DNA from: Candidatus Thermoplasmatota archaeon
GTDB taxonomy: Archaea; Thermoplasmatota; E2; DHVEG-1
DNA: 36,433 bases
Reading direction: 5' to 3'
Assembly: GCA_029907305.1 (NCBI GenBank)
Contig: JARYMC010000003.1
Coordinates: forward strand, 1 to 36,433
Both the position numbers and the translations under genes were made by a program. The notes under the pieces are model-generated. The model searched no databases. It was not told where the DNA came from and saw only the letters and a program-made list of their open reading frames with translations. Positions 32,752 through 36,433 of the stretch are shown here, in pieces (the first letter of the stretch is position 1; each line of letters begins with the position of its first letter).

Positions 32752-32924
32752 TTTTTAAAAAATGAATTTGCTGAAAAAAAAATATTTTACTATTTTGAAA
32801 ATGAAAATTTTTTGCGTTTTTCTTCAAAAAATTTTAATACATCTTTATCGATATCATTTATGTTGTGAGTTGATAAAAAAAAGTATGATGATGTTTGAGG
32901 AGATTGGGAGTTGATGGGAAGTTG

Positions 32925-33902
32925 ATGAACTTCCAGAAAGAAAAAGAGGGGGCACCATTTTTTAATTTTGAGAGTGTTGGGAACACTTTATTTACAAGAG
33001 CAAGAAACATCGAAAACGTTATTGGTTTTGGTAGGGTTCATATAAAATTTGAGGGTGTGAATCCAACTGGTACTCAAAAAGATAGGATTTCTGTTTATCA
33101 CATTAATAAAAGTTTAGAGGGGGAGTATGATGGTGTCACAGTTGGTACTTGCGGTAACTATGGTGTTTCTCTTGCGTATTTTGCGAAACTAGCTGGTTTG
33201 AAAACTAAGATTTTGATTCCAGAAAAATATTTTATTACGCCTAAAAGGAAAATTGAACTTAATGCTCTTGGTGCTGAGATAATTACTGTTGATGGTAAAT
33301 ATGAGGATGCTGTTGAGGAGAGTAGGAGGGTAGCAAAGAAAGAGAACTTGTATGACGCAAATCCTGGTAACGATAGTGAGGGGTGGCGTGGTTATATGCC
33401 GATAGCTTATGAGATTTTTAATCAGCTTGGTCGTGTGCCAACAGCTGTTTCTGTGCCAGTTGGGAATGGGACTACACTGCTTGGTATTTATCATGGTTTT
33501 AAGGATCTTCTTGATCGTGGTTTAACGGATGTTATGCCTTATTTAGTTGGGGCGTCTACGAGTGGTGGTAACCCGATTGTTAATAGTTTTAAAAACGGTG
33601 ATTCGAAGGTTGTGGATTTACGTCCAGATGAGCTGAGAGAGACTGCTGTGAATGAGCCGCTTATTAGTTATCATTCTTATGACGGTGATGAGGCTTTGAA
33701 GGCGATATATGAAACCAATGGTTGGGCTGATTACGTAAGTGATTCTCGTATGTTGCAGCTTCATACTCTGCTGAAGGATTTTGAGGGTTTGAATGTTCTT
33801 CCTGCGTCAACTAGTGCGATTGATGCTTTGATAAAATTCAAGCAGCATAGACAGTTGAGTAGTGATTATGTTTTGGTTTTAACTGGTAGGAAGTTTAGAT
33901 AA
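32925..33902 (+). CDS. threonine-synthase-like PLP enzyme, reaction unknown
   Basis: A fold-type II PLP enzyme of 325 residues. The lysine that binds PLP is K52 (NPTGTQKDR, as in threonine synthase PTGSFKDR); the substrate loop is GTCGNYGVS, where synthase has SGN; and GNGTTLLG binds PLP phosphate. It is shorter than archaeal threonine synthase (about 400) and lacks its N-terminal part, so another β-replacement or elimination is likely. The ATG at 32925 is preferred over TTG 32895. Co-oriented with DUF1611 (36 bp gap) and MurL-like genes, suggesting it serves the same pathway. Confidence 0.82.
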   Translation: MNFQKEKEGAPFFNFESVGNTLFTRARNIENVIGFGRVHIKFEGVNPTGTQKDRISVYHINKSLEGEYDGVTVGTCGNYGVSLAYFAKLAGLKTKILIPEKYFITPKRKIELNALGAEIITVDGKYEDAVEESRRVAKKENLYDANPGNDSEGWRGYMPIAYEIFNQLGRVPTAVSVPVGNGTTLLGIYHGFKDLLDRGLTDVMPYLVGASTSGGNPIVNSFKNGDSKVVDLRPDELRETAVNEPLISYHSYDGDEALKAIYETNGWADYVSDSRMLQLHTLLKDFEGLNVLPASTSAIDALIKFKQHRQLSSDYVLVLTGRKFR

Positions 33903-33938
33903 TTGCACGTATTTCAATGGGGGGATTAATACAAGTTT

Positions 33939-34994
33939 ATGTTGAAGAACCAAGCTGTTGTATACGCTGACCGTCTTTATAGTTGTGCTGATGGTAAGAC
34001 TGCGCATGGTCTTGTGCGATTCAGCAAAAAATATGACATTGTTTGTGTTGTTGATTCAACTTTACCAAAGAGTGATGCTGGCGAGATATTAGATGGTATC
34101 AACCGTGGTATACCTTTGGTAAATGATCTTGAGGAGGTTTTTTCTTTTGCTAAACCAGATACGTTTATTGTTGGAGCGGTGTCTGAGGGTGGTGTCCTCC
34201 CAAAAGGTTATGAAAAGGCTGTTGAATGGGCGCTTTCAAATGGTCTTGATGTTGTTTCTGGTTTGCATCAATTTATTTCTGATGACCCGGTTTTTTCCAA
34301 GCTTGCGGAAAAAAATAATTGCACAATCACTGATGTACGTAAGATATTTCGTGATCACAGACGTTTTTATACAGGTGAGATAAAAAATGTTGAATCTTTT
34401 CGTGTTGCTGTTCTAGGGACTGATTCTGCGATAGGAAAAAGGACACTCGCTGTGTTAATAGTTGAGGAACTAGAAAAACGTGGATACAAGGCAGACATGA
34501 TTTACACTGGTCAAACTGGTTGGTTGCAGGGATGGCCACATGGTGTTATCATAGATGCTATGGTAAATGATTTTGTTTCAGGTGGTATAGAAGGTGCGAT
34601 ACTTGACTCCTGGCGTGATGAACAACCTGATTTTATGATTATTGAAGGGCAGGGGAGTTTGGTTCATCCTTTTTTCCCAGGTGGTTTTGAGATTCTGGTT
34701 GCTGGAAAAATCAATGGTTTTTTACTCATGGATGCACCAAAACGTCCTCATCTAGATGGTTTCCCAGGTTACCCTATGCCTAACCCAGAACGGGTTGTAA
34801 AAATAGCAGAGCTACTCACAGAAAAATCATTGTTTGGCATCGGCATAAACCATGAAAACATGAAAAAAACAGATATAAAATCAGCAAAAGAAAAACTAAG
34901 CAGAGAATTCCGTGTTCCAGTGGTTGACCCAATCTTTGATGGCGTAGATGCTATTGTTGATGTGTTGGAGGAGAAAACATGCCAAGTGAACTAG
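33939..34994 (+). CDS. DUF1611 (COG3367) P-loop protein, DgcN-like
   Basis: The 351-residue protein has an N-terminal Rossmann-like domain (1-145; IVGAVSEGGVLPKGY, SGLHQFISDDP) and a C-terminal P-loop domain with GTDSAIGKRT (160-169), EGQGSLVHPFFPGG and DAPKRPHLDGFP. These are the features of DUF1611. Some members (DgcN) N-acetylate D-glutamate in a D-Glu breakdown or synthesis route; others pair with an enolase-superfamily epimerase. No such epimerase is seen here; a MurL-like gene overlaps instead (16 nt). GGGGGGA precedes the start by about 12 nt. Confidence 0.88.
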   Translation: MLKNQAVVYADRLYSCADGKTAHGLVRFSKKYDIVCVVDSTLPKSDAGEILDGINRGIPLVNDLEEVFSFAKPDTFIVGAVSEGGVLPKGYEKAVEWALSNGLDVVSGLHQFISDDPVFSKLAEKNNCTITDVRKIFRDHRRFYTGEIKNVESFRVAVLGTDSAIGKRTLAVLIVEELEKRGYKADMIYTGQTGWLQGWPHGVIIDAMVNDFVSGGIEGAILDSWRDEQPDFMIIEGQGSLVHPFFPGGFEILVAGKINGFLLMDAPKRPHLDGFPGYPMPNPERVVKIAELLTEKSLFGIGINHENMKKTDIKSAKEKLSREFRVPVVDPIFDGVDAIVDVLEEKTCQVN

Positions 34995-36433
34995 ATAAGT
35001 TTTTGTGTTTCTCTTCGATTAATTTATCTGAACCCAAATTAGTTGGTAAATCAGTAAGAGCTGATGTGACGTTAAATAAAATCACTGGTGAGGAAAAAAA
35101 ATTTTCCATGTTGGTTCGTTATGAAAATAACGTTGACGAAAAGCATCTGCCTTTGTTGAGAATGGCTTTTTGTATGCCCCTTTTGAATTATGGTCTTTTT
35201 TCAAAGAAACTTTTGTTGGATTTTCCTGTAAGTAAATCTGACCTGAGTCTATTGAATGATTTGAATGTTGTTTTCAGCGGGGATATTCTTGTTAACAAAA
35301 TTCTGCGACGTCGAGCAGATTTTATTCTACCAGAGTTTATACCAGATAAGAAAAAGATAAAACCCGAGGATGCAAAACCTAGAGCATGTATAGAACCAAA
35401 AGAGGTTGTAAATGATTTTCCTGTCGCCAAGGGTATTATGAATCAAAACAGTTGTGGGATATTATCAAGTGGTGGGAAAGAAAGTCTTTTGACATATGCT
35501 TTGTTGAATGAGCTGGGAGTTGAGGTGCATCCACTTTATGTTAATGAAAGCGGTGGTCATTGGAGAACCGCTATACCTGCATATAATTATCATAGACGCA
35601 TAAACCCAAATACTTGTCGTGTGTGGGTTAATGTAGATAGATTATACACTTTCATGCTTGATAACCTAAAATTTATAAGAAAGGATCATAGACTAGTAAA
35701 AGCAGATACTTACCCGATTAGGCTGTGTATTTTCCCGTTTTATATATTCATACTTTTACCAGTTTTTGTTGAACGCAGAATCGGTAATCTTCTTATGGGT
35801 AATGAATTTGATGACCTTAGACAAAAACCTGTGTATCTTGGTATAACACACTACTATGGGATATATGATCAGGAACAAATATTTGATATCAGGATGCATC
35901 AATGGTATAATAAGAGGATACCTGGTATGAATCAATGGTCTATACTCAGAGGTCTGTCAGGTCTTGTAGAAGAAAGAATACTTACAAGGCGTTATCCTGA
36001 TCTTGCGAAATACCAGCGTTCATGTCACTCGTGCCACATAGAAAACGGAGAGATAGTACCATGTGGCAAATGCTCCAAATGCCTAGGGATTTTGTTGTTT
36101 TTAATTGCGAACAAGGCTGATCCAAAAGTTATGGGTTACAAAGATGAAGACATAAAGGCTTTCCCAGATAGAATTGAACCTTCTGATCTGCGTCTTGATG
36201 AGGATGAAAAAAACCAATCATTTTATTTGCTAAATGACAAAAAAAGATACCCAGATATAAAATATATAGATCATGTAGAAAAAATACACATAGACCCTGA
36301 GACTTGTGATATAAGTCTGATACCAGCACAGTTCAGAGACGGTTTGATGAGGATCATTGAGCAATATACCACTGGTTACTGTAAATTTCATGGTGAAAAA
36401 TGGATAAACATAGAAAAAACTGAGGTTGAATCT
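34979..36433 (+). CDS. MurL-like epimerase, partial (cut by window end)
   Basis: ATG 34979, behind GGAGGAG, opens a frame that stays open to the window edge: 485 codons with no stop. It matches my memory of MurL, the ATP-dependent epimerase that turns L-Glu to D-Glu in UDP-MurNAc-L-Ala-L-Glu. Visible are the PP-loop-like SSGGKES (163-169), VNESGGHWRTA (188-198), the GNEFDD segment near 274-279, YDQEQIFD (296-303), SILRGLS (321-327), and a CxxC zinc-like cluster (C349, C352, C362, C365, C368 in PCGKCSKC). It overlaps DUF1611 by 16 nt. The substrate in an archaeon is unknown. Family call moderate; the C terminus is unseen. Confidence 0.7.
   Translation, partial: MPSELDKFLCFSSINLSEPKLVGKSVRADVTLNKITGEEKKFSMLVRYENNVDEKHLPLLRMAFCMPLLNYGLFSKKLLLDFPVSKSDLSLLNDLNVVFSGDILVNKILRRRADFILPEFIPDKKKIKPEDAKPRACIEPKEVVNDFPVAKGIMNQNSCGILSSGGKESLLTYALLNELGVEVHPLYVNESGGHWRTAIPAYNYHRRINPNTCRVWVNVDRLYTFMLDNLKFIRKDHRLVKADTYPIRLCIFPFYIFILLPVFVERRIGNLLMGNEFDDLRQKPVYLGITHYYGIYDQEQIFDIRMHQWYNKRIPGMNQWSILRGLSGLVEERILTRRYPDLAKYQRSCHSCHIENGEIVPCGKCSKCLGILLFLIANKADPKVMGYKDEDIKAFPDRIEPSDLRLDEDEKNQSFYLLNDKKRYPDIKYIDHVEKIHIDPETCDISLIPAQFRDGLMRIIEQYTTGYCKFHGEKWINIEKTEVES

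Follow-up and report, generated by a model that had tools for sequence, protein, structure and literature searches.

What do a threonine-synthase-like enzyme, a DUF1611 protein and a protein with the motifs of the epimerase MurL do together in an archaeon? The question is raised by contig JARYMC010000003.1 of a Candidatus Thermoplasmatota archaeon, analysed here over its whole length of 36,433 bases (the window), at the end of which genes of these three kinds follow one another. The original prediction had seen in them an operon that may build or recycle a D-glutamate- or γ-linked peptide or polymer, or a cell-surface glycopeptide. Our answer is that the operon is real and widespread, that it has no part in murein synthesis, and, as a tentative reading for which we would claim somewhat less than even confidence, that its three genes form the heart of an archaeal and bacterial pathway, as yet uncharacterised, acting on a small peptide or an N-acylated amino acid. 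The genes are:

32925..33902, forward strand: PALP, a fold-type II pyridoxal-phosphate (PLP) enzyme, threonine-synthase-like (NF004996), with an ATG start; an alternative upstream TTG start at 32895 is possible.
33939..34994, forward strand: DUF1611 protein, with a Rossmann-like N-terminal domain and a P-loop C-terminal domain, a distant relative of DgcN.
34979..36433, forward strand: MurL-like/QueC-like PP-loop protein, 485 amino acids, its open reading frame (ORF) still open at the end of the contig and its 3' end lost.

The predicted layout of three overlapping or near-contiguous genes was correct: 36 bp separate the first two, the second and third overlap by 16 bp, and the third frame is open at 36433. 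Since the MurL-like proteins of relatives terminate near the point where the contig stops, the window copy lacks only its last residues. Scanning the collection gave 249 relatives of the MurL-like protein, of which 80 were kept, making 81 loci together with the window. A DUF1611 gene lies beside the MurL-like gene in 75 of the 81 and a PALP gene in 68, so that the predicted gene set is retained among homologues. Because the order PALP, DUF1611, MurL-like is repeated in most of the 80 other loci, archaeal and bacterial, the operon is far beyond chance, and the view of it as a conserved set of families linked elsewhere to D-glutamate or peptide epimerisation is sustained. What is more, the matrices of pairwise identity are correlated among the three proteins (r of 0.92, 0.76 and 0.73), with 0 of 500 permutations as high. 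The MurL-like protein was matched in 24 of 99 related genomes, one of which (G012) counts solely via a paralogue. Archaeal carriers belong to Thermoplasmatota and Bathyarchaeota, and bacterial ones to Bacteroidota (including the Flavobacteriaceae isolates Robiginitalea sediminis, Eudoraea adriatica and Croceitalea dokdonensis), Acidobacteria, Myxococcota, Zixibacteria, Gemmatimonadetes, Rhodothermota and Caldisericota; many carrier genomes are metagenome-assembled genomes (MAGs), and some of these taxon labels may be wrong. The archaeal origin of the window is supported, the nearest named relatives being Thermoplasmatota MAGs, but the gene set is not specific to archaea. One locus from a record titled Myxococcales MAG (L080) encodes a MurL-like protein that shares 50% identity with its archaeal counterpart, together with an archaeal-type convergent GNAT gene, and is either a recent transfer or a mis-binned contig. 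Among the papers searched, none characterised a member of the operon, and none on DUF1611 or on MurL in archaea was relevant.

Could the three genes nonetheless have separate, ordinary jobs, with, for instance, a threonine synthase lying by chance beside two unrelated proteins? The retention of the operon across many phyla speaks against this, and the PALP protein also bears on it. Two of its positions are listed here:

33078..33080, forward strand: the lysine expected to bind PLP, in the motif GTQKDR, present in 66/66 operon PALPs and aligned with Lys61 of threonine synthase 1UIM.
33150..33152, forward strand: a cysteine in the substrate-binding loop (TCGNYG), equivalent to Thr85 of 1UIM and likewise present in 66/66 operon PALPs.

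The threonine-synthase-like call was sound at the level of family: the protein, which is the sole PF00291 match in the host genome, matches that model with an E-value of 3.6e-55 and scores 411 bits against NF004996, which is named threonine synthase and has a cut-off of 266, a result that favours the ordinary assignment. It also shares with threonine synthases (1UIM, 2ZSJ) the type II fold, the PLP lysine and the overall alignment. It differs from them, however, in the substrate loop, where besides the Thr85 replacement T88 has become Tyr in 65/66 and F60 has become Gln in 63/66 operon PALPs, and the loop near Arg160 is altered as well. In addition, the host is without the homoserine pathway, as homoserine dehydrogenase (PF00742) has no match in its genome and is found in 14/14 control genomes. 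Threonine synthesis was rejected on these two grounds, the changed invariant loop positions and the missing dehydrogenase. The PALP reaction is thus probably not threonine synthesis, in agreement with the original prediction, which had left it unassigned, and the name of NF004996 may be wrong for this clade. All in all, we regard chance neighbourhood of three ordinary genes as very improbable.

Absences of this kind have to be read against the state of the host genome (G000), which comprises 1.41 Mb in 141 contigs, one of them the entire window (contig C3), and is 95.5% complete; some 4.5% of it is missing, so any one absence could be an artefact. The control genomes were positive in 10 to 14 of 14 for the searches in question. 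With this proviso, the host gave no match to Mur ligases (PF08245, positive in 12/14 control genomes), and neither an Asp/Glu racemase nor an enolase-superfamily epimerase (MR_MLE_C) was found in it. Taken together with the lack of homoserine dehydrogenase, murein and threonine synthesis are therefore both a misfit. A murein or D-glutamate polymer as the product was rejected for the lack of a Mur ligase and of an Asp/Glu racemase, and the polymer originally proposed fares no better given two results described below, namely a MurL score far below the cut-off and linked epimerases that carry Glu instead of Arg.

The DUF1611 protein was recognised correctly, both its domains scoring above the gathering threshold (PF17396, E-value 1.1e-23, 83.8 bits; PF07755, E-value 5.6e-56, 189.6 bits) and structures 7xrj (E-value 9e-34) and 2g0t (E-value 9e-39) being matched in the PDB. 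Its P-loop is marked by one conserved element:

34416..34445, forward strand: Walker-A-like motif GTDSAIGKRT, whose Gly, Asp, Gly and Lys never vary among the DUF1611 proteins compared, 74 from operons and 11 canonical.

The predicted kinship with DgcN is a distant one, as the protein reaches 167 bits against the NCBIfam DgcN model, whose cut-off is 480, and does not qualify as a DgcN. In a tree, the operon proteins fall on one side of a branch and the 11 canonical ones on the other (support 97/80), and the operon clade has invariant residues of its own (W195, Q197, E251 and D273), E251 and D273 being variable in canonical proteins. Among the closest known systems is the DgcN-DgcA pair of D-glutamate catabolism, which joins DUF1611 to an enolase-superfamily racemase. 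The operon resembles it in the DUF1611 core and P-loop residues and, in some relatives, in a locus that also has an enolase-superfamily epimerase. It differs in that its DUF1611 proteins form a separate clade (147 to 167 bits against the cut-off of 480) and in the addition of PALP and MurL-like partners; in the window, no DgcA-type racemase adjoins DUF1611. Elsewhere, a DUF1611 protein that branches just outside the operon clade (L144, G033:C2, 2171-3250) had no MurL-like or PALP gene found alongside.

The third protein is the one on which the original prediction turned, and its most conserved residues among 70 homologues indeed lie in the predicted motifs, that is, in the PP-loop, the NESGxHW segment and the SCH...CGxCxKC cluster:

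35465..35485, forward strand: PP-loop motif SSGGKES, predicted to bind ATP, invariant in the 70 homologues save one E/D position.
35543..35563, forward strand: motif NESGGHW, with Glu, Gly, His and Trp invariant in the 70 homologues.
36023..36082, forward strand: predicted zinc site SCHSCH...CGKCSKC, with C349, H350, C362, C365 and C368 invariant in the 70 homologues; QueC-like fold.

The presence of zinc at the last site would follow from analogy with QueC. While the motifs stand, the identity as MurL does not: the protein has no match in Pfam even at an E-value of 10, and the profile check that had succeeded for DUF1611 gave, for the NCBIfam MurL model NF041275, an E-value of 0.021 and 13.4 bits against a cut-off of 700, other family members reaching 18.8 bits at most. 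The protein is thus not a MurL. Neither is it assigned to QueC, as no QueC model appears among its listed Pfam and NCBIfam matches. That said, NF041275 is the best or only NCBIfam match for most family members tested (E-values from 6e-4 to 0.05, over the same C-terminal region), and MurL is absent among the NCBIfam matches listed for E. coli QueC. A paralogue in a related genome, L054, bridges the two, with an hhalign probability of 98.7 to the MurL-like family and an E-value of 4.8e-4 to the MurL model over 200 residues. Judged from this model and this intermediate, a distant kinship with MurL is likely, extending across the PP-loop and the Cys-rich regions and compatible with a plausible ATP-dependent activation of a carboxylate. 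The family differs from MurL in that it scores 13 to 19 bits against 700, is partnered by PALP and DUF1611 and not by MurD2, and is found here in a host without Mur ligases. The same second PP-loop paralogue, about 26% identical and outside the operon, occurs at L053 2916-4151 and L054 437-1855, in the latter case close to a sulfotransferase-like gene; separately, a heliorhodopsin gene (PF18761, 326 bits; L050, G016:C38, 2249-3199) adjoins a second, orphan MurL-like copy.

Which fold would such a protein have? An AlphaFold model built with the 70 homologues (pLDDT 95.2, pTM 0.93) has QatC (E-value 8e-5), Cap9 and QueC as its best Foldseek matches, with a TM-score on the target of 0.66 to 0.68 for QueC. 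The modelled QueC/QatC fold, the SGGK[ED]S PP-loop and the CGxCxxC cluster, all shared with these zinc-site enzymes, place the protein in the QueC-like PP-loop superfamily. It differs from QueC, QatC and Cap9 in having extra N- and C-terminal regions, and from E. coli QueC in the lack of a significant profile match, hhalign being restricted to the PP-loop at a probability of 4%. A role in anti-phage defence was discarded for lack of a PADLOC match, despite QatC being the top fold match. MurL itself has been described as having no known conserved domains (PMC5808125, PMC8788868), and the fold of its relative suggests a QueC/QatC PP-loop fold for the wider MurL family, a proposal modelled on the MurL-like protein.

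The same fold is also compatible with a different chemistry. QueC, for one, converts a carboxylate with no epimerisation involved, and the MurL-like protein may similarly be a ligase that couples an adenylated carboxylate with ammonia or an amine, giving an amide or a conjugate of an unusual amino acid that PALP would supply; the product would be a dipeptide-like metabolite (an osmolyte, a cofactor precursor or a signal), recycled by the creatininase, M14 and epimerase homologues. In agreement with such a ligase, the PP-loop and the predicted zinc site are the best-conserved parts of the protein. In bacteria, the genes run PALP, DUF1611, MurL-like, creatininase family, epimerase, and L120 shows a fusion of creatininase with the MurL-like domain (by Pfam), as does the sequence of L122, with proteins of creatininase-fusion length in L123, L126 and L131; such fusions suggest paired making and breaking of an amide. 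The best listed sequence match for most members tested is, however, MurL and not QueC, and the alignment to QueC is confined as stated. We take this ligase to be a serious possibility that stops short of being probable.

Further hints come from variable partners. In the archaeal family of the window, a convergent GNAT gene is usual, and eight loci also have an M14 peptidase and an epimerase; in 27 loci of mine Thermoplasmata, the operon is preceded, at a distance of some 160 bp, by a gene for a D-aminoacyl-tRNA deacylase. HxxE, a His further downstream and a Glu late in the sequence are retained by 8/8 of the M14 proteins. Dipeptide-epimerase homologues stand beside the operon in 18/81 loci, so the suggestion that MurL replaces the epimerase usually paired with DUF1611 fits the host genome, but not the family as a whole. 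The linked epimerases retain the complete catalytic set (KxK, D, E, D, K, DxD) of the dipeptide epimerases in 19/19, and differ from them at the pocket. Namely, all 19 have Glu at the position of Arg24 of the B. subtilis L-Ala-D/L-Glu epimerase (1JPM), which we take to bind the glutamate side chain (1JPM/1TKK work), and Asn or Asp at 298, a pair lacking in nine same-phylum enolase-superfamily relatives unlinked to the operon. Position 24 is Gly in E. faecalis 3JVA and E. coli YcjG; M. capsulatus 3RIT has Arg at 24 and Asp at 298 in the printed alignment. The score against the L-Ala-D/L-Glu epimerase model is 249 (cut-off 500). With Glu in place of the Arg, L-Ala-D-Glu is an unlikely substrate. 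These acidic residues, with the fixed E251 and D273 of DUF1611, suggest on sequence grounds a cationic or amide-bearing residue instead of glutamate.

The pocket also bears on the idea that the operon serves in the recovery of D-amino-acid peptides, such as those of bacterial murein, from detritus, with M14 acting like MpaA, the epimerase like YcjG, and DUF1611 acetylating the freed D-amino acid like DgcN. Its attractions are the pairing of epimerase and M14 in the eight archaeal loci, recalling E. coli, where ycjG adjoins mpaA, the part that DgcN takes in D-glutamate racemisation, and the absence of biosynthetic Mur ligases from the host. It is weakened by linked epimerases without the Glu-binding Arg, by an M14 match that is marginal in Pfam and without a convincing PDB homologue by sequence, and by the absence of peptidase and epimerase beside the operon in most loci; what is more, an ATP-consuming L-to-D enzyme makes little sense in salvage. 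We consider it unlikely.

Returning to the pathway that we favour, MurL carries out a one-way L-to-D epimerisation in which ATP is consumed to AMP (PMC8788868). By analogy, the MurL-like enzyme would adenylate the α-carboxylate of a peptide's C-terminal residue, converting ATP to AMP and pyrophosphate; adenylation would acidify the α-proton and so drive the epimerisation in one direction, from L to D, a mechanism that has been proposed for MurL. DUF1611 may transfer an acyl group to the same molecule or activate it there, and PALP may make or degrade an unusual amino acid by β- or γ-elimination or replacement, both roles being suggested by family membership; where present, the epimerase and hydrolases would return the product to the L form and then cleave it. 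In the host, which has neither the epimerase nor a close GNAT homologue, the three core genes must act without them. For the MurL-like protein, present evidence gives nearly the same odds to a MurL-type epimerisation and to a QueC-type formation of an amide; we slightly prefer the former because an epimerase of another superfamily and the D-aminoacyl-tRNA deacylase recur alongside the operon. Several points weigh against the pathway as drawn. PP-loop enzymes also form amides, thiolate RNA and attach deazaguanines, so that the fold alone is no proof of epimerisation. The deacylase belongs to one lineage and may reflect chance synteny; besides the missing epimerase, the host match to the operon GNAT, on contig C40, is only 30% and not the orthologue; and the role assumed for Arg24 concerns a residue that is not universal, E. 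coli YcjG also being without it. A still more specific version is in our view doubtful. In it, a previously undescribed, murein-unrelated and ATP-driven peptide epimerisation, common to archaea and bacteria, would have a QueC-fold enzyme invert a cationic dipeptide-like metabolite at its C-terminal residue, while the epimerase with the rebuilt pocket would handle the return.

Regarding the surroundings, the genes upstream of PALP encode pilin-like or small unassigned proteins for which a Pfam search gave no convincing match, and the operon therefore appears to start at PALP. Between 29747 and 32751 of the window, four short proteins have pilin-like hydrophobic N-terminal segments, e.g. GIMGLTLSQIGLIVATGVIL; one is on the reverse strand, and one has a weak match to the Ig-like Big_1 domain. 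In one archaeal genus (L036-L041), a conserved pair of LuxC (acyl-CoA reductase) and LuxE-like genes lies near the operon, within about 2-19 kb of the locus coordinates, accompanied by a copper-type P-ATPase.

Little is known of D-amino-acid chemistry in archaea, and the operon provides a pathway that can be put to the test both there and in Flavobacteriaceae amenable to cultivation (Robiginitalea, Eudoraea, Croceitalea). Counts of dgcN in metagenomes, particularly from Bacteroidota, may include DUF1611 genes of the operon's different clade. Finally, the operon ties the MurL-like family, by its predicted structure, to the QueC/QatC PP-loop fold.

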